This document shows positions 9,848 to 17,693 of a DNA stretch of 22,887 nucleotides, piece by piece. The stretch is from a virus. Positions within the stretch are counted from its first letter, which is position 1; every line of letters starts with the position of its first letter. The DNA is taken from positions 1 to 22,887 of the IMG/VR virus record IMGVR_UViG_3300025108_000409, one strand, 5' to 3'. The position numbers were made by a program, and so were the translations under genes. A model generated the notes under the pieces. The model was not told the DNA's origin and searched no databases. It saw nothing but the letters and a program-made list of their open reading frames with translations.

Positions 9848-10966
9848 TTACAATTTTATTAATTCTTCTTCAATCTCTGACATGAAAAAATCATTATTTT
9901 TCTTTAGATTATCTATGTATTTAGGATTGATTTTAATTGCATCTAAATTTATTTTAAATACACTATCATCAGATAAAGCCATAGACTTTTTAAGAACATT
10001 ATGAAATGCATAACGTGCAACTTCAGTAAAAGCAAACTCAGTAAATTTATCTTTACTAATTAATGTTTTTAGATACTGTTCATAATATCCACCATAAGAA
10101 GCATTATTTCTAGGGACAAACGCCTCAAGAGATTTTCTCATTGTTTTTACATTAACATTGTTCCAGTTCCTGGTGTCCTTCAGATAATCATAATAAAAGT
10201 AAAACAACATAGATACATAATCATATGACTTTGTTAAGTTACAGTTAGCAAGTAATTCTAGTGCTAAAGACCTATTTTCTTTATCATCTGACTTAATCAT
10301 AGACCGAGTACTAATATACTCCTTTTTATCAATTACATGTAAGTCTTCATATGTAAAGTCTGTAACTAAAGTATCCAATATAAGATTATTATAAGTAGAA
10401 ATATTTGTAAACTGTTCCTCAAACTCAGGCTTAATATAATAATAATTGCTAATAAGTTCATTAAAGCTACCATCATTAGTCAAATTAGGCAAAGATGATT
10501 TATAATAATGTTGAAACTTTAGCTCTACATAATCATCATCCTTTACTGTATTTAATGCATTGATTATACTATCAAAACACTCTGTTGTAAAATGTTGCTT
10601 ATGAGAAGCCATCTCCGTAATAACATTCTTTACCTCATATAGACTATACCAAGAGTAATCACTCATGCTTTTTTGATATTTGTGAGATACAATTAAGTAA
10701 TCTGCTTTATCAATGTTCCTGGTAAGCTTGACATCAAACTTATCTTTTAATAGATCCATTTTTTGTCTAGGTAAATCCAACTTTGGAAACCTATATAATA
10801 CTTTATCTTGCAGATCTTGTGACTTTATAGTTTGATAAGTCACACCATTTATTTCTGGTTTATCTGGATGATAACTTGATAGAAATATTACTGGATCATT
10901 TATTTGAACTGAATCATATAAACTACCACCATCACTTTTAATTTTTAGTCTTAATATCTTCTTCAT
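9848..10966 (-). CDS. Unknown protein, probable paralogue of the next gene upstream
   Basis: 372 aa, soluble, Asp/Lys/Tyr-rich. Residues 55-95 (KVLYRFPKLDLPRQ ... LTRNIDKADYLIVSH) parallel KKAFLLPRSPV ... LTNDYESADLLLTH in the gene immediately upstream. A second parallel is SLALELLANCNLTKSY here with AIAGMMLPTIDYTKNY there. The first block looks like a Rossmann-like strand-helix-strand with a conserved ADhhhhH end. No nucleotide-binding or catalytic motif is evident and I recognise no family. The gene overlaps its paralogue by 29 bases and stands downstream of the MoxR ATPase and VWA genes, suggesting a shared complex. Confidence 0.6.
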   Translation of the reverse strand: MKKILRLKIKSDGGSLYDSVQINDPVIFLSSYHPDKPEINGVTYQTIKSQDLQDKVLYRFPKLDLPRQKMDLLKDKFDVKLTRNIDKADYLIVSHKYQKSMSDYSWYSLYEVKNVITEMASHKQHFTTECFDSIINALNTVKDDDYVELKFQHYYKSSLPNLTNDGSFNELISNYYYIKPEFEEQFTNISTYNNLILDTLVTDFTYEDLHVIDKKEYISTRSMIKSDDKENRSLALELLANCNLTKSYDYVSMLFYFYYDYLKDTRNWNNVNVKTMRKSLEAFVPRNNASYGGYYEQYLKTLISKDKFTEFAFTEVARYAFHNVLKKSMALSDDSVFKINLDAIKINPKYIDNLKKNNDFFMSEIEEELIKL

Positions 10967-12014
10967 TTAATTTTATTTTTAAATATTTTCTGTATTCTGG
11001 TTTTACTTCAACTTTAAATACATATAAATCTCTGTTATGTATACTTATCTCTTTTCTTACTAGAGGTTCTAAATGTCTAAAAGAAACTGCATCAAGTTTT
11101 TCTTCTTCCTCTAGCCAAAGTATCATGTCTTGTGCACTCTTGCGTGCAAAAAGATCATAGTTAGACTTGTCAATCCAATATTGTATATCTTTATTTCTAT
11201 TAAAGTGATACATTTTATATTCAGTCTGTCTAGCAAGTTCCCATAGTAAGTGATAATTTTTTGTATAATCTATAGTAGGTAACATCATACCCGCAATAGC
11301 CAAATCATCTCCTGTTGTATTCATTTGATTCACTAAATCTTTTAATACATCTTCAGTTAACTCCTGCTTATTAGCGGACTCACATACAACAGTATCTACA
11401 TCAATAACGCTAAGGGTTCCTATTTCAATCTTATAAGCAAGATTTACAGCTAAACCAGTAATAAGCCATTGGTCATATATACTTTCTAAAATACTTAGAT
11501 TGTTTCTATTAACAGTATCTCTTATCTTATCATGATATATAACAGGATTTCCTGTTGTTTTAGAATACTGATGAGTAACGTTTGAACTAAAGTATGCTGT
11601 ATTATCATCATTAAAAGATTCATAATTCCAAAGCTTTGCAAGCATTAATGTTGACTTTATTGTTTCACCATGTTCACATCTTTCTGAAATATCTCCATGA
11701 GTCAGCAGCAAATCAGCTGATTCATAGTCATTAGTTAATACAATACCGTGTTCTTTACACGCAGCTCTTACTCTATCAATAGATACAGGTGATCTTGGTA
11801 ACAGAAAAGCTTTTTTGCAAGCTTTAAAAGTTGTAGAATCTACCGTATCTGTAGTTATTATGTTTCCTATTTTCTCATATGTTGTTTGATCTTCTGTTAG
11901 CAGAACTGTATTTACTTCGGTGTTTGAAGCAACTCCATAACTAGGAGCTGCTTCAAGACCAAAGTGTTGAACTGCATCAGTGTCAAAATCTTGATATACT
12001 GATTTATTTGCCAT
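10938..12014 (-). CDS. Unknown protein, paralogue pair member next to the MoxR ATPase
   Basis: 358 aa. An N-terminal low-structure stretch of about 60 residues precedes the conserved block at residues 67-106, ending in ESADLLLTH. A mid-section DTVVCESANKQ (residues 207-217) and the DDLAIAGMMLPTIDYTKNYHL block (236-256) follow, then a charged C-terminus. No recognised domain or catalytic signature. It starts one base after the MoxR-type ATPase stop and overlaps the downstream paralogue by 29 bases. A substrate, adaptor or scaffold for the ATPase/VWA pair is the working inference; a DNA-processing subunit is also possible. Confidence 0.6.
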   Translation of the reverse strand: MANKSVYQDFDTDAVQHFGLEAAPSYGVASNTEVNTVLLTEDQTTYEKIGNIITTDTVDSTTFKACKKAFLLPRSPVSIDRVRAACKEHGIVLTNDYESADLLLTHGDISERCEHGETIKSTLMLAKLWNYESFNDDNTAYFSSNVTHQYSKTTGNPVIYHDKIRDTVNRNNLSILESIYDQWLITGLAVNLAYKIEIGTLSVIDVDTVVCESANKQELTEDVLKDLVNQMNTTGDDLAIAGMMLPTIDYTKNYHLLWELARQTEYKMYHFNRNKDIQYWIDKSNYDLFARKSAQDMILWLEEEEKLDAVSFRHLEPLVRKEISIHNRDLYVFKVEVKPEYRKYLKIKLNEEDIKTKN

Positions 12015-12015
12015 T

Positions 12016-13281
12016 TTACTTCATTGTCATTTTGATGATATCTGGATTCATCATCATTTTATTAAACTTCTGTTTGTTACCGTTAAATATGGTACGTACA
12101 ATTAAATACTTTAAATCATTTGTAAAGTAATCTTTTGTACATAAAGAGATAAGACGGTCACTAATCTTTTTAGTAACAGTATTCTCTTTAGAGTATACAA
12201 CTGCAAAGTTTCCTAAACGTGTTGCTAATGTAGATGCAATATCTGCACGGTATGTGTCATCTTGACCAACACAACCTCTAAGCTCACCCAATATATATTG
12301 CTCATTATCATGAGTCAACAAATCTGTAGGTGTAACCAGCTTATCCAGTTTGTTATTAATAAAGGTTGTAAACATAGAAGCAAATGTATCTCCTACACTA
12401 CCTTCACCAATCATCTGAACCATACTTAAGTTATCTTCAAAACTATCAAAACTTGATATTGCATTAAAGAATGTAGTAATGGACCTTGCATTAGTTTCTT
12501 GTGTAACTAATTCTGGATGAAGTAACAAAAAGTTAATACATCTAGTGTCAATACCTGCTTCTTCTGCCCAACGAGCCCAAACATTAACATCAAACTTAAG
12601 ATTAGCTGTAATATATCTAGTCTTCTGTGCACTATCTACACTGTTAACCATATAGTCTCCGTTATCTGGATTTGCTGTTAAAATAATATGCCAATCTTTT
12701 GGTAAAGACCAAGAGATATAAGTCTGACGGTCTACTAATTCCATAACTGCTTGTATAAAACGTACATCTGCACGATTCCAGTCATCTAACAGTAGTATAC
12801 CACCATCTTTAGCATCTGCAATCCATTCTGGAGCACAGTATGACATTCTATTTTTGCCTGTCATCTTGTAACCATTCTTTAGATAGTCAGCAACTGCTAA
12901 TTCATCAACCCAAGAACCTACCTTTTTTGTAATAGTAGTATTCATAGAGGCTAAGTCTTTAGATGCTGCACTTCTTTGAGCAGCTGTATAAGACAAATCA
13001 TCTACTTTCTTAATGGTCTTTTCTTTGTACATCTGAAACTGACGTACAGGAAATCCAACTAAGTCACCCAGCTCTTCTATCTGAGCTAAATTAAGCTTAA
13101 CAAACTTTAATTTGTTTTCTGTAGCTAAATCTACAATAGTAGACGTCTTACCAATACCTGATTCACCCACTATCTCTGTTGCTACAGGAAGTTTTCCTTG
13201 CTGTTGTAAGAATCTGTTGTTGTTTATGATGTGGTTTACAAAATCTTTTGCCTCATCAATATTTAAATTTACTTGTGCCAT
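12016..13281 (-). CDS. MoxR-type AAA+ ATPase
   Basis: 421 aa. Walker A is GESGIGKTS (residues 39-47), Walker B is GGILLLDDWNRA (161-172) and sensor 1 is IILTANPDN (199-207). The order and the 'DDWNRAD' box are those of MoxR-type AAA+ proteins, which form hexamers and work with VWA-domain partners to remodel proteins or insert metals. The insertion between Walker A and B (about residues 82-145, Lys-rich) is long. The gene lies nine bases downstream of the VWA/metallopeptidase gene, the classic MoxR-VWA arrangement. The target in phage infection is unknown. The P-loop Gly, Lys and Thr are all present, so ATP hydrolysis is expected. Confidence 0.85.
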   Translation of the reverse strand: MAQVNLNIDEAKDFVNHIINNNRFLQQQGKLPVATEIVGESGIGKTSTIVDLATENKLKFVKLNLAQIEELGDLVGFPVRQFQMYKEKTIKKVDDLSYTAAQRSAASKDLASMNTTITKKVGSWVDELAVADYLKNGYKMTGKNRMSYCAPEWIADAKDGGILLLDDWNRADVRFIQAVMELVDRQTYISWSLPKDWHIILTANPDNGDYMVNSVDSAQKTRYITANLKFDVNVWARWAEEAGIDTRCINFLLLHPELVTQETNARSITTFFNAISSFDSFEDNLSMVQMIGEGSVGDTFASMFTTFINNKLDKLVTPTDLLTHDNEQYILGELRGCVGQDDTYRADIASTLATRLGNFAVVYSKENTVTKKISDRLISLCTKDYFTNDLKYLIVRTIFNGNKQKFNKMMMNPDIIKMTMK

Positions 13282-13290
13282 AATTGCTTT

Positions 13291-14451
13291 TTAGTTTAAT
13301 TTTATTACTTTTCCTGGTAACTCATCATTCATTCCTGAAACGCTGCTTAACACCCATAAAGTGTTTTTAGGACAGTCATCCGGGGAATATGCTTCACCAT
13401 CTGTTAAATATACTAGGGCCGTATACCGCCCATGCTCATTGTAATGATCTATTACAGGTTGGAAGCTTGTACCTCCTCTACCTTTTATGCCAAGATCTTT
13501 TTTAGGATTGAAATCTTCAACCGAACGTAATACTGTATCACATTGTGCTATTGTTATTTTATGTCCGGTTTTATGCATATGCACAAGCTCATTCATAAAC
13601 TCCTCTAACTCACTTGTTGATACAGAACCAGATGTGTCTATACCTACAAGTATGTGATTTTTAAATTTAATTTTAAGACCTGGATTTGCTGAATAACGTT
13701 TATTGTATTTACGTCTAAGCTTCTTAGTGTAAATAACAGTAGAGTTACCAACAAACCTTCTTAAATAACCTTTCCAATCAAATTTAGCAGGTTCTACATA
13801 ACGAAGTCTAGAAACAAGTTCAGATAACTCACCTGGTATAGTACCACATCTTTTTTCTGTCTGTTCTGCTACTTCTTTAATTTGATGTTCTATTTGTTTT
13901 TCTATTAGCTTTTTATCTGCTTCAGATAAATCATCAAACTCATCCCATGTAGTATGGTCATATGGACTATCACCGTTCATATTATTAAGAAGATTATTAA
14001 GAGAAGGACATTGACCTTCATCTTGGGCTTCTTGTAGGAGTTCATAGTATTTATCTGTACCAGCTTTTACAGGTAGCTTTAAATCAGCAAATGTTTCTAA
14101 AGTTAATCCACCTTCTGGTAGATATTCTGAATCTATGTACTGATTAATTTCTAAGTCTGCCGCTATATTAAATAACTTTTTGTCATTATATCTATCTCTA
14201 GTTATTAAATGACCAAAACTTATGTGTAATAATTCATGTTTTAACAATCCTATTCTATGTTCTAAACTTAAATTAGAAAAGAAATCAGGATTTATTGATA
14301 ACTGTGCACCAATGCCTTGTTTACTAACACCTGCTGTAGGTATATCTTTTCTAAAAGTTTTATTTAACCCAACTAAAAAGAGCCCATAAAAGGGCTCTTG
14401 TAGTATGAGTGTTTTACTTGCTTTTGCAAGTGAATCTGCTATTTTTACCAT
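13291..14451 (-). CDS. VWA-domain protein with N-terminal metallopeptidase-like motif (DUF2201-like)
   Basis: 386 aa. The N-terminal region has KHELLHISFGHL (His72-Glu-x-x-His76), a zincin-type site, with NIAADLEIN following as a possible third-ligand helix. The C-terminal VWA domain carries a MIDAS motif GIDTSGSVS (Asp272, Ser274, Ser276), GGTSF (Thr328) and YLTDGEA (Asp351). This architecture matches the DUF2201/'putative metallopeptidase' family that pairs with MoxR ATPases. Next to the MoxR gene it probably forms an ATPase-VWA chaperone-like machine; whether it cleaves peptides is open. A terminator-like hairpin (14378-14399) lies inside the first 75 coding bases. Confidence 0.85.
   Translation of the reverse strand: MVKIADSLAKASKTLILQEPFYGLFLVGLNKTFRKDIPTAGVSKQGIGAQLSINPDFFSNLSLEHRIGLLKHELLHISFGHLITRDRYNDKKLFNIAADLEINQYIDSEYLPEGGLTLETFADLKLPVKAGTDKYYELLQEAQDEGQCPSLNNLLNNMNGDSPYDHTTWDEFDDLSEADKKLIEKQIEHQIKEVAEQTEKRCGTIPGELSELVSRLRYVEPAKFDWKGYLRRFVGNSTVIYTKKLRRKYNKRYSANPGLKIKFKNHILVGIDTSGSVSTSELEEFMNELVHMHKTGHKITIAQCDTVLRSVEDFNPKKDLGIKGRGGTSFQPVIDHYNEHGRYTALVYLTDGEAYSPDDCPKNTLWVLSSVSGMNDELPGKVIKLN
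14374..14399 (-). terminator. Intragenic terminator-like hairpin near the start of the VWA gene
   Basis: On the minus strand AAGAGCCC, loop TTTTAT, GGGCTCTT forms a perfect 8-bp stem followed by a T-run (TTTTTA when counted from the stem end). It begins about 52 bases after the ATG at 14451, within codons for QEPFYGLFL. Form fits an intrinsic terminator or attenuator; chance within coding sequence is the alternative. Confidence 0.4.
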
Positions 14452-14876
14452 GTTATATTTAATTTAATGTCATCTATCCAAGGAAATTTAACTACTTCAC
14501 GGATTGTTGATATCCATTCATTATCAAACTGTGATTTAAAAATCTTCTTTGCTTCTAAATCATTTGTATAGTGAGATGAAATTGTATTATATAACTTATC
14601 CCAACTAAGATCTACTGCTTGAATAGGACTTCCCCATCTTCTTTCTAGTGTAACTTTATATTCACTAAATAATTCTAATTCAAGTATGTCTTTATTTATT
14701 TCTAAGATTTTCTCTCTTGTTTCCTTTGGTGCCATCTTAGCTAGCAACAATACATAAATAGGATCTAGATTAAGATTATCTATATTTGATAAACCTATGC
14801 TTACATCTTCTTTTACAGATGAATTTAATAATTGCTTTATTCCTATAAAATCTGATATTTTAAATTCCATTACCAT
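14445..14876 (-). CDS. Hypothetical protein
   Basis: 143 aa, helical, acidic, with a terminal segment rich in Ile/Trp (FPWIDDIKLNITW). Two candidate starts, ATG at 14876 and at 14870, differ by two codons. It overlaps the VWA gene start by seven bases, so translational coupling to the VWA/MoxR module is likely. No recognised family. The tight overlap makes it a candidate accessory component of that module, but sequence alone shows no function. Confidence 0.6.
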   Translation of the reverse strand: MVMEFKISDFIGIKQLLNSSVKEDVSIGLSNIDNLNLDPIYVLLLAKMAPKETREKILEINKDILELELFSEYKVTLERRWGSPIQAVDLSWDKLYNTISSHYTNDLEAKKIFKSQFDNEWISTIREVVKFPWIDDIKLNITW

Positions 14877-14878
14877 AA

Positions 14879-15226
14879 TTAATCATTTATTTTTAAAGTC
14901 TTAGACATCCAATGTGGTTTGTTCTTTCTATTCATATGAACTATCCACTCTTTTGCAGAAGGTATGTAATTATTACAGTCTTCTTTGACATGTTGCTCAC
15001 CAACATATCTTGTATATACAGTTTTACCATCTGAATTTGTAAAACTTTCTCCAAATATTTTTTCTGATTCAAAAATTCCTTCAGAGTGGTGACGATAAAG
15101 TCTATGAATACTATGACCCATCCATTTTTTGGTTTCATCAAACCAGTTATGTATGTCCATGTAATCTTCAACTTTACCACCCCATTTTCTGACAGAACTT
15201 TTGCAGTGTAATAAAGGATGTGCCAT
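14879..15226 (-). CDS. Conserved small protein, DUF6915-like
   Basis: 115 aa. The pattern HPLLHCKSSVRKWGG, then HNWFDETKKWMG, RHHSEGIFESEKIFG, NSDGKTVYTRYVGEQHVKED and a final Trp-containing segment matches a widespread family of about 110-aa proteins that I recall as DUF6915 (number from memory). The many conserved His residues (His3, the RHHSEG pair and the EQH motif) could bind a metal, giving an HD-like helical site, though this is not established. It directly follows the DUF6878-like gene (TAATG overlap). Function unknown; a conserved domestic enzyme co-opted by the phage is possible. Confidence 0.7.
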   Translation of the reverse strand: MAHPLLHCKSSVRKWGGKVEDYMDIHNWFDETKKWMGHSIHRLYRHHSEGIFESEKIFGESFTNSDGKTVYTRYVGEQHVKEDCNNYIPSAKEWIVHMNRKNKPHWMSKTLKIND

Positions 15227-16971: not shown

Positions 16972-16997
16972 TAAAAAGGGAGACCCGAAGGCCTCCC
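16972..16997 (-). terminator. Rho-independent terminator after the putative SSB gene
   Basis: On the minus strand GGGAGGCC, tetraloop TTCG and GGTCTCCC form an 8-bp stem with one G.U pair, followed by TTTTTATT. UUCG is an extra-stable loop. The element lies between the stop at 17007 and the primase ATG at 16967. Partial read-through may set primase levels below SSB. Confidence 0.88.
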
Positions 16998-17006
16998 ATA
17001 TATTTA

Positions 17007-17693
17007 TTAAAGGTCAAAATCATCACCACCGACAGTAGATGTTGATGGTTCAAATGTGTTATTTGAATTTCCAGTAGAAGCTGCTGTTCTATTTTTAACT
17101 GGGATGATATGCTCATCTCTGTTAAATGTAGTCAACTTACTGTTCTCAACATTTACATCTTCAAATGGTACTCCTGATTGATTACGTTTTGGTAAGAAGA
17201 ACTGGAGGTTAATATAACCTTCTTTGTTTTCCCACTCACGTCCTGCAATACAGAAGTTATAGTAAGTGTCACCACTTAGTATATTATTAGCTGATGTTAC
17301 AAACTCTTCAATAGTGTTTGCTTCAATAGCATCTAACTCACTACGTTTATTTTGCTGCTCTGCCATGAATATCAATGATTTCATGATTTCTGCATCTCTA
17401 CTAATTTCTCTACCGCTTGGTAAAGTTGCATCAGCAAAAGCATAACGTTGAAAAGATACTCTACCTACTTGACCTGCATAACGTGGGCCATTAGGATTAT
17501 TAACATCATGTAAAAAACCATCAAAGTCTCCTTTAATTGCTTCTGATTCTACATTAATCTGTAGATCATATGCATTACTATCATAAGGAGGTGTGTGTAA
17601 TTTAATTGAATTAATTTTTAGTAATTGATTACCTGCATCAATAACTGGTTTAGTTTTTCCGCTTCCGGCTGACATGTCTTTTGTACTTAACAT
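17007..17693 (-). CDS. Putative single-stranded DNA-binding protein
   Basis: 228 aa. A beta-rich body (LLKINSIKLHTPPYDSNAYD, then VGRVSFQRYAF, and YINLQFFLPKR near residues 160-170) is followed by a Ser/Thr/Asn-rich linker from about residue 195 and an acidic hydrophobic tip GGDDFDL. This layout, core plus flexible linker plus acidic tip, is the hallmark of SSB proteins, whose tips recruit repair factors. It sits next to the Sak4-like ATPase and ahead of primase, as in other phage replication modules. High expression is suggested by the strong terminator just after it. An alternative start is Met7 (17675). No standard SSB signature is visible, so the call is inference. Confidence 0.6.
   Translation of the reverse strand: MLSTKDMSAGSGKTKPVIDAGNQLLKINSIKLHTPPYDSNAYDLQINVESEAIKGDFDGFLHDVNNPNGPRYAGQVGRVSFQRYAFADATLPSGREISRDAEIMKSLIFMAEQQNKRSELDAIEANTIEEFVTSANNILSGDTYYNFCIAGREWENKEGYINLQFFLPKRNQSGVPFEDVNVENSKLTTFNRDEHIIPVKNRTAASTGNSNNTFEPSTSTVGGDDFDL

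Follow-up and report, generated by a model that had tools for sequence, protein, structure and literature searches.

MoxR-type AAA+ ATPases paired with proteins that carry a von Willebrand factor A (VWA) domain have been described in both phages and bacteria. In jumbo phages, a MoxR ATPase accompanied by a metallopeptidase-VWA protein was proposed to act in virion assembly (Iyer et al., 2021, PMC7824862). In N4-like phages (Schitoviridae), the AAA+ ATPase gp24 and the vWFA protein gp25 are core genes (PMC4193335; PMC7650795) that belong to the middle transcription class (PMC4193335), and in multicellular bacteria MoxR-VWA ternary conflict systems are known (PMC7159879). Here, we analysed a stretch of viral DNA of 22,887 nucleotides (IMG/VR record IMGVR_UViG_3300025108_000409, positions 1 to 22,887; hereafter the window) that carries a five-gene module made up of a MoxR-type ATPase, a zincin metallopeptidase-VWA fusion protein and three partner proteins of 143, 358 and 372 amino acids. 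As a pair, MoxR and zincin-VWA are already known, and hundreds of phage genomes have them; the new element is the third component. The linked three-partner family, the contrast in evolutionary rate between motor and partners, the parallel in PBS1-like phages and a hairpin embedded in the VWA gene were not found described in the open-licence papers searched. The original prediction, made from the DNA letters of the window, could not name the system; the pair had already been described in phages.

The five genes of the module, in the order of transcription, are as follows:

14445-14876, minus strand: open reading frame (ORF) of the 143-amino-acid partner, with homologues directly upstream of the VWA gene across the clade

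13291-14451, minus strand: zincin metallopeptidase and VWA fusion with a metal ion-dependent adhesion site (MIDAS), 386 amino acids, assigned by PF13203 and PF09967

12016-13281, minus strand: MoxR-type AAA+ ATPase, 421 amino acids, assigned by phrog_1297 (3.3e-33) and motif alignment

10938-12014, minus strand: ORF of the 358-amino-acid partner, confirmed as an ORF, with no family match

9848-10966, minus strand: ORF of the 372-amino-acid partner, confirmed as an ORF, with no family match

The spacings are -7 (143/VWA), +9 (VWA/MoxR), +1 (MoxR/358) and -29 (358/372) bases, and on checking, both the coordinates and the motifs matched the prediction of five adjacent minus-strand genes spaced by -29 to +9 bases. 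All five genes occurred in identical order and on the same strand in 269 of the 300 loci that were fetched, a set of overlapping contigs in which several are counted more than once. Most of the 31 exceptional loci end at a contig edge; six loci (two contigs) had no recognisable 143-amino-acid gene, and in two loci (one contig) the MoxR frame was broken and neither a VWA nor a 143-amino-acid gene was recognised. With this degree of collinearity the block is not a chance assembly, and the predicted pairing of two dedicated partners with MoxR-VWA in a phage replication block was borne out as near-obligatory linkage. Separate occurrence of the components, which the original prediction had named as evidence against itself, was seen in one direction: the 358/372 genes without MoxR were found at contig ends only, whereas MoxR/VWA without these genes is common. 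The VWA protein was found in 433 phage records. A search of 50,697 phage records detected no partner homologue, even when divergent queries were included.

The VWA protein matched the 'putative metallopeptidase' domain DUF2201_N (PF13203, 5e-21) and the VWA-like domain DUF2201 (PF09967, 1.2e-14), both of which passed the curated cut-off. It also matched phrog_1314 at 4.8e-64; PHROGs and numerous phage records label that family 'HNH endonuclease', which clashes with the zincin-VWA domains and was judged to be a mislabel. Two motifs were read directly in the VWA protein:

14224-14238, minus strand: HELLH zinc-site motif, residues 72-76, with H72, E73 and H76 invariant

13624-13638, minus strand: MIDAS motif DTSGS, residues 272-276, with D272, S274 and S276 invariant

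In addition, the protein has GGT (residues 326-328) and TDG, with D351 of the latter invariant. Alignment showed that HELLH, DTSGS, GGT and TDG are kept as far as N4 gp25, AR9 g029 and S-TIM5, and that H81, N95 and D99, which lie downstream of HELLH, are invariant across very distant phages. The ATPase, which was aligned with those of N4, AR9, S-TIM5 and a Moorella phage, has a Walker A motif (GESGIGKT, residues 39-46), sensor-1 N204, the arginine-finger-type residue R222 and a clade-specific insert at roughly residues 94-149. Its Walker B motif (LLLDDWNRA, residues 163-171) has Asp in this clade versus Glu in most relatives. The match of the ATPase to Pfam AAA_5 was below the cut-off, and profile comparison linked it to annotated phage MoxR proteins (the MoxR-like ATPase of S-TIM5, 1.1e-15; AR9, 3e-11). 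A VWA protein with HExxH and MIDAS motifs and a MoxR-type AAA+ protein had been predicted, and both were confirmed.

Plain blastp between the 358- and 372-amino-acid proteins gave a marginal match. Profile-profile comparison of the two families scored 35.0, whereas the best of 60 column-shuffled decoys reached 22.6. When the halves were compared separately, the C-terminal ones again outscored every decoy, and the N-terminal ones outscored all but one of the 60. AlphaFold models of the two proteins (predicted local distance difference test, pLDDT, 87 for the 358- and 88.5 for the 372-amino-acid protein) had strands and helices in identical order. The profile score and this shared topology together indicate that the two are remote full-length paralogues, so that the guess expressed in the word 'paralogues' holds. 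Furthermore, the 143- and 372-amino-acid families had a motif of ~45 residues in common (score 40.3, decoys at most 18.4), with a weaker match between the 143- and 358-amino-acid families (24.0, decoys at most 20.7), and a profile of the 143-amino-acid family detected the 372-amino-acid protein within a single genome at 1.7e-4. Profile-profile comparison placed the common helical motif at:

14742-14864, minus strand: residues 5-45 of the 143-amino-acid protein

10202-10336, minus strand: residues 211-255 of the 372-amino-acid protein

11241-11363, minus strand: residues 218-258 of the 358-amino-acid protein, the weakest of the three

All three partners are thus joined by one helical motif. The 143-amino-acid protein, whose homologues in relatives have 83-157 residues (most about 100), had been listed as a separate protein of no known family; no known family was found for it, but the motif places its gene with the 358/372 partners. 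The 358-amino-acid protein also ends in a conspicuous segment:

10980-11084, minus strand: C-terminal segment of the 358-amino-acid protein, residues 311-345, highly conserved and mostly of low model confidence

Conservation at residues 311-340 (0.85-0.86) is among the highest in the protein, yet pLDDT is 54-59 at residues 321-340, and we infer that this segment may fold on a partner.

In its model, the 358-amino-acid protein has an N-terminal alpha/beta part of BRCT-like topology and a C-terminal helical part. Foldseek matched the PARP1 BRCT over 40-59 columns with probabilities of 0.90/0.85 for the 372- and 0.69/0.72 for the 358-amino-acid protein, at E >0.1. Membership in the BRCT family, which the sequence pattern had also suggested, was not supported by profile comparison: hhalign against 32 bacterial BRCT domains gave probabilities of 0.7% and 0.2%, the 358-amino-acid family scored no better than decoys (which were run for this family only), and of 45 members only 7 had a weak Pfam BRCT match, with E 0.017 at best. 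We therefore retain 'BRCT-like topology' alone. No Pfam domain above the cut-off, PHROG family or solved structure matched the partners by sequence, and no VMAP, effector-domain or FtsH component was among Pfam matches above the cut-off (VMAP models were not searched for). Against viral models, Foldseek gave four matches at E <3e-5, namely two proteins of a single podovirus and one protein each of a crAss-like virus and an uncultured phage, so that the fold probably extends beyond this clade.

The five genes also differed in rate. Median identity to the window was 85% for MoxR and 72% for VWA, with DnaB (86%) and PolB (73%) as yardsticks, and 53%, 37% and 35% for the 358-, 143- and 372-amino-acid proteins, respectively. 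The median ratio of non-synonymous to synonymous substitutions (dN/dS) was 0.063 for MoxR, 0.097 for VWA, 0.216 for the 358-, 0.295 for the 143- and 0.351 for the 372-amino-acid protein. The partners are constrained, yet their rate of change exceeds that of the motor roughly 3-6 times.

The DNA of the module was also found within a 69-kb IMG/VR contig, and relatives reach 114-118 kb. Hallmarks of Crassvirales were read in one of these relatives (G001, 117,829 bp); the window itself has no TerL. Because G001 has two opposed gene blocks, an ORF of 4,988 amino acids, a major head protein (6.6e-31) and a TerL (4.9e-63) whose best listed database hits are crAss-like phages, we interpret the phage as a marine crAss-like (Crassvirales-type) virus, probably a deep-branching one. 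The head and tail genes lie on the other strand from the module. Rather than forming an operon of its own, the module lies inside a run of replication genes, flanked by primase/RusA and exonuclease/PolB, in a gene block that also holds DnaB and Sak4. Nine reference crAss-like or related phages had no VWA protein, no 358/372 pair and no other partner homologue, and one of the nine gave a weak match to the ATPase profile (2.1e-4). The module was also present in two contigs (L327, WLWP01000004.1, and L328) binned into metagenome-assembled genomes of Pseudomonadales and Campylobacteraceae. A host assignment from these bins was dropped as the binning is too weak; they are probably phage contigs caught in bins.

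The jumbo-phage pair (PMC7824862) corresponds to the present one in both proteins and in the domain fusion. The text available describes no related partner family, whereas here three linked, related partners accompany the pair in a replication block. N4 gp24 and gp25 are homologous to the pair, with conserved motifs; dCTP deaminase comes next after gp25 in N4, ~6 kb separate the two genes of the pair in pVa5, and neither phage has partner homologues. The ternary conflict systems (PMC7159879) resemble the module in joining MoxR and VWA to a third dedicated component, but no known effector domain was found in the partners here, and the present module is phage-encoded. The layout recurs in PBS1-like phages (Takahashivirus), which carry, behind MoxR/zincin-VWA, tandem paralogues whose C-terminus is conserved. 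There are two such paralogues in AR9, where an early promoter is annotated just before the ATPase gene, two and two gene remnants in PBS1, and five contiguous copies and one further on in Goe21. The tandem arrays lie at:

L362, 11600-16556: PBS1-like tandem paralogue array

L363, 8699-10934: PBS1-like tandem paralogue array

L145, 7600-9444: PBS1-like tandem paralogue array

These paralogues, with a copy number of 2 to 5, are not homologous to the partners described here: profile comparison with the AR9/PBS1 tandem genes gave no homology. PBS1-like jumbo phages independently have tandem paralogues behind the pair.

We tentatively favour, at somewhat less than even weight, a reading in which the module encodes a phage AAA+ remodelling and probably proteolytic machine with dedicated partner adaptors. 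The intact motifs, the collinear loci, the relatedness of the partners and the combination of a conserved core with variable partners argue for such a machine, as does the recurrence of the layout in the unrelated PBS1-like lineage. By analogy with known MoxR-VWA systems, the MoxR-type ATPase ring would pull on or remodel a target, and the VWA protein would dock on the ring and grip the target through its MIDAS site; the zincin domain may then cut it. The partners would attach via conserved patches, namely the helical motif and the 358-amino-acid C-terminal segment, and their variable parts would choose the targets, of which host proteins encountered early in infection are the likeliest. Probably, the targets of the machine are either selected by the partners or the partners themselves. 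The position among replication genes, the early promoter in AR9 and the middle transcription in N4 fit a role in the infection phase. Several points weigh on the other side. Every median dN/dS lies far below 1 and gives no sign of whole-gene positive selection; fast change of the partners would equally fit clients or relaxed constraint; N4, pVa5 and S-TIM5 carry the pair without such partners; and the Asp in place of Glu in Walker B could weaken hydrolysis.

Instead of adaptors, the 358- and 372-amino-acid proteins (with the 143-amino-acid protein) may be dedicated clients, forming a phage complex that depends on MoxR-VWA for its assembly, activation or loading. This would resemble RavA-ViaA, CoxD-CoxE and NorQ-NorD, in which, as here, a motor and a VWA cofactor serve particular complexes; these are not known to have a fused zincin domain, and their clients are bacterial enzymes. 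The well-studied MoxR-VWA systems do serve particular client complexes (PMC7159879), and the near-strict gene linkage, the full-length 358/372 paralogy, which suggests a heterodimer, and the conserved but poorly modelled 358-amino-acid tail, which could be an engagement tag, are all in keeping with clients. However, few genes of the neighbourhood evolve as fast as the partners, which is unusual for the client of a conserved motor, and near relatives among the PBS1-like phages differ in how many copies of the analogous genes they have, which is odd for a complex of fixed composition. We regard clients as a serious but on balance doubtful possibility, and adaptors as more likely. The original prediction pointed to remodelling of host or phage replication proteins, and a machine acting on the replisome or on recombination complexes whose genes lie in this run would suit both the flanking genes and a MoxR as conserved as DnaB. 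Yet the module is missing from other Crassvirales whose set of replication genes is similar, no domain in common with replisome proteins was found, and neighbourhood alone is weak evidence in phages. The machine motifs and the replication block of that prediction stand; nothing was found that shows action on replication proteins, and we consider such targets distinctly unlikely.

Virion assembly or maturation, with the pair serving as chaperone and processing protease for structural proteins, was proposed in print for group 2.2 jumbo phages that have this domain architecture, the Acidianus two-tailed virus being the precedent (PMC7824862), and the S-TIM5 pair adjoins Hsp20 and structural genes. 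The position of the present module among replication genes and opposite to the head and tail genes, the middle transcription of the N4 homologues and the AR9 early promoter argue against that proposal, and for this locus we hold it to be less likely again. Finally, the metallopeptidase could be catalytically idle and the module a pure remodeller or regulator that works without proteolysis. MIDAS proteins often only bind, and the Walker B Asp would agree with such a role, but HELLH, H81, N95 and D99 are invariant over very distant phages, and we consider an idle peptidase very improbable.

Besides the protein-coding features, a hairpin was found at the 5' end of the VWA gene:

14378-14399, minus strand: terminator-like hairpin, AAGAGCCC-loop-GGGCTCTT followed by a T run

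This hairpin lies 53 nt into the VWA gene, about 46 nt past the stop of the 143-amino-acid gene, and its pattern was present in 276 of 363 loci. The stem is kept through codons little used in the rest of the gene (CCC, 87% versus 8% usage; GGG, 97% versus 11%; CTC, 65% versus 3%). The predicted energy was -11.3 kcal/mol versus a mean of -4.5 for synonymous re-encodings, with a fold z of -5.6, and paired cells and covariation were above all 500 shuffles, with just three double changes in 33 sequences. The hairpin may limit transcription into VWA-MoxR-358-372 and thus act as an attenuator of the motor genes. A sigma-70 scan of the region gave no excess over shuffles. Directly upstream of the 143-amino-acid gene lies a gene for a DUF6915 protein (14879-15226, minus strand), which was detected in 19 of 77 loci with ~80% identity where found. 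Further upstream, a second terminator-like hairpin (16978-16997, minus strand), whose sequence is altered in G001, lies between a 228-amino-acid gene (17007-17693) and the primase gene and suggests a transcript boundary.

If the adaptor reading is true, the module would amount to an AAA+ protease, encoded by a phage, whose specificity can change. More speculatively, and on the whole we think this unlikely, phage MoxR/zincin-VWA machines may repeatedly have recruited swappable tandem adaptors that diversify under host pressure, which would give a retargetable AAA+ protease for takeover or counter-defence, separately in marine crAss-like and in PBS1-like phages. Lineages in which the pair is locked to related partners would offer a handle on the targets of the N4-like core-gene pair.

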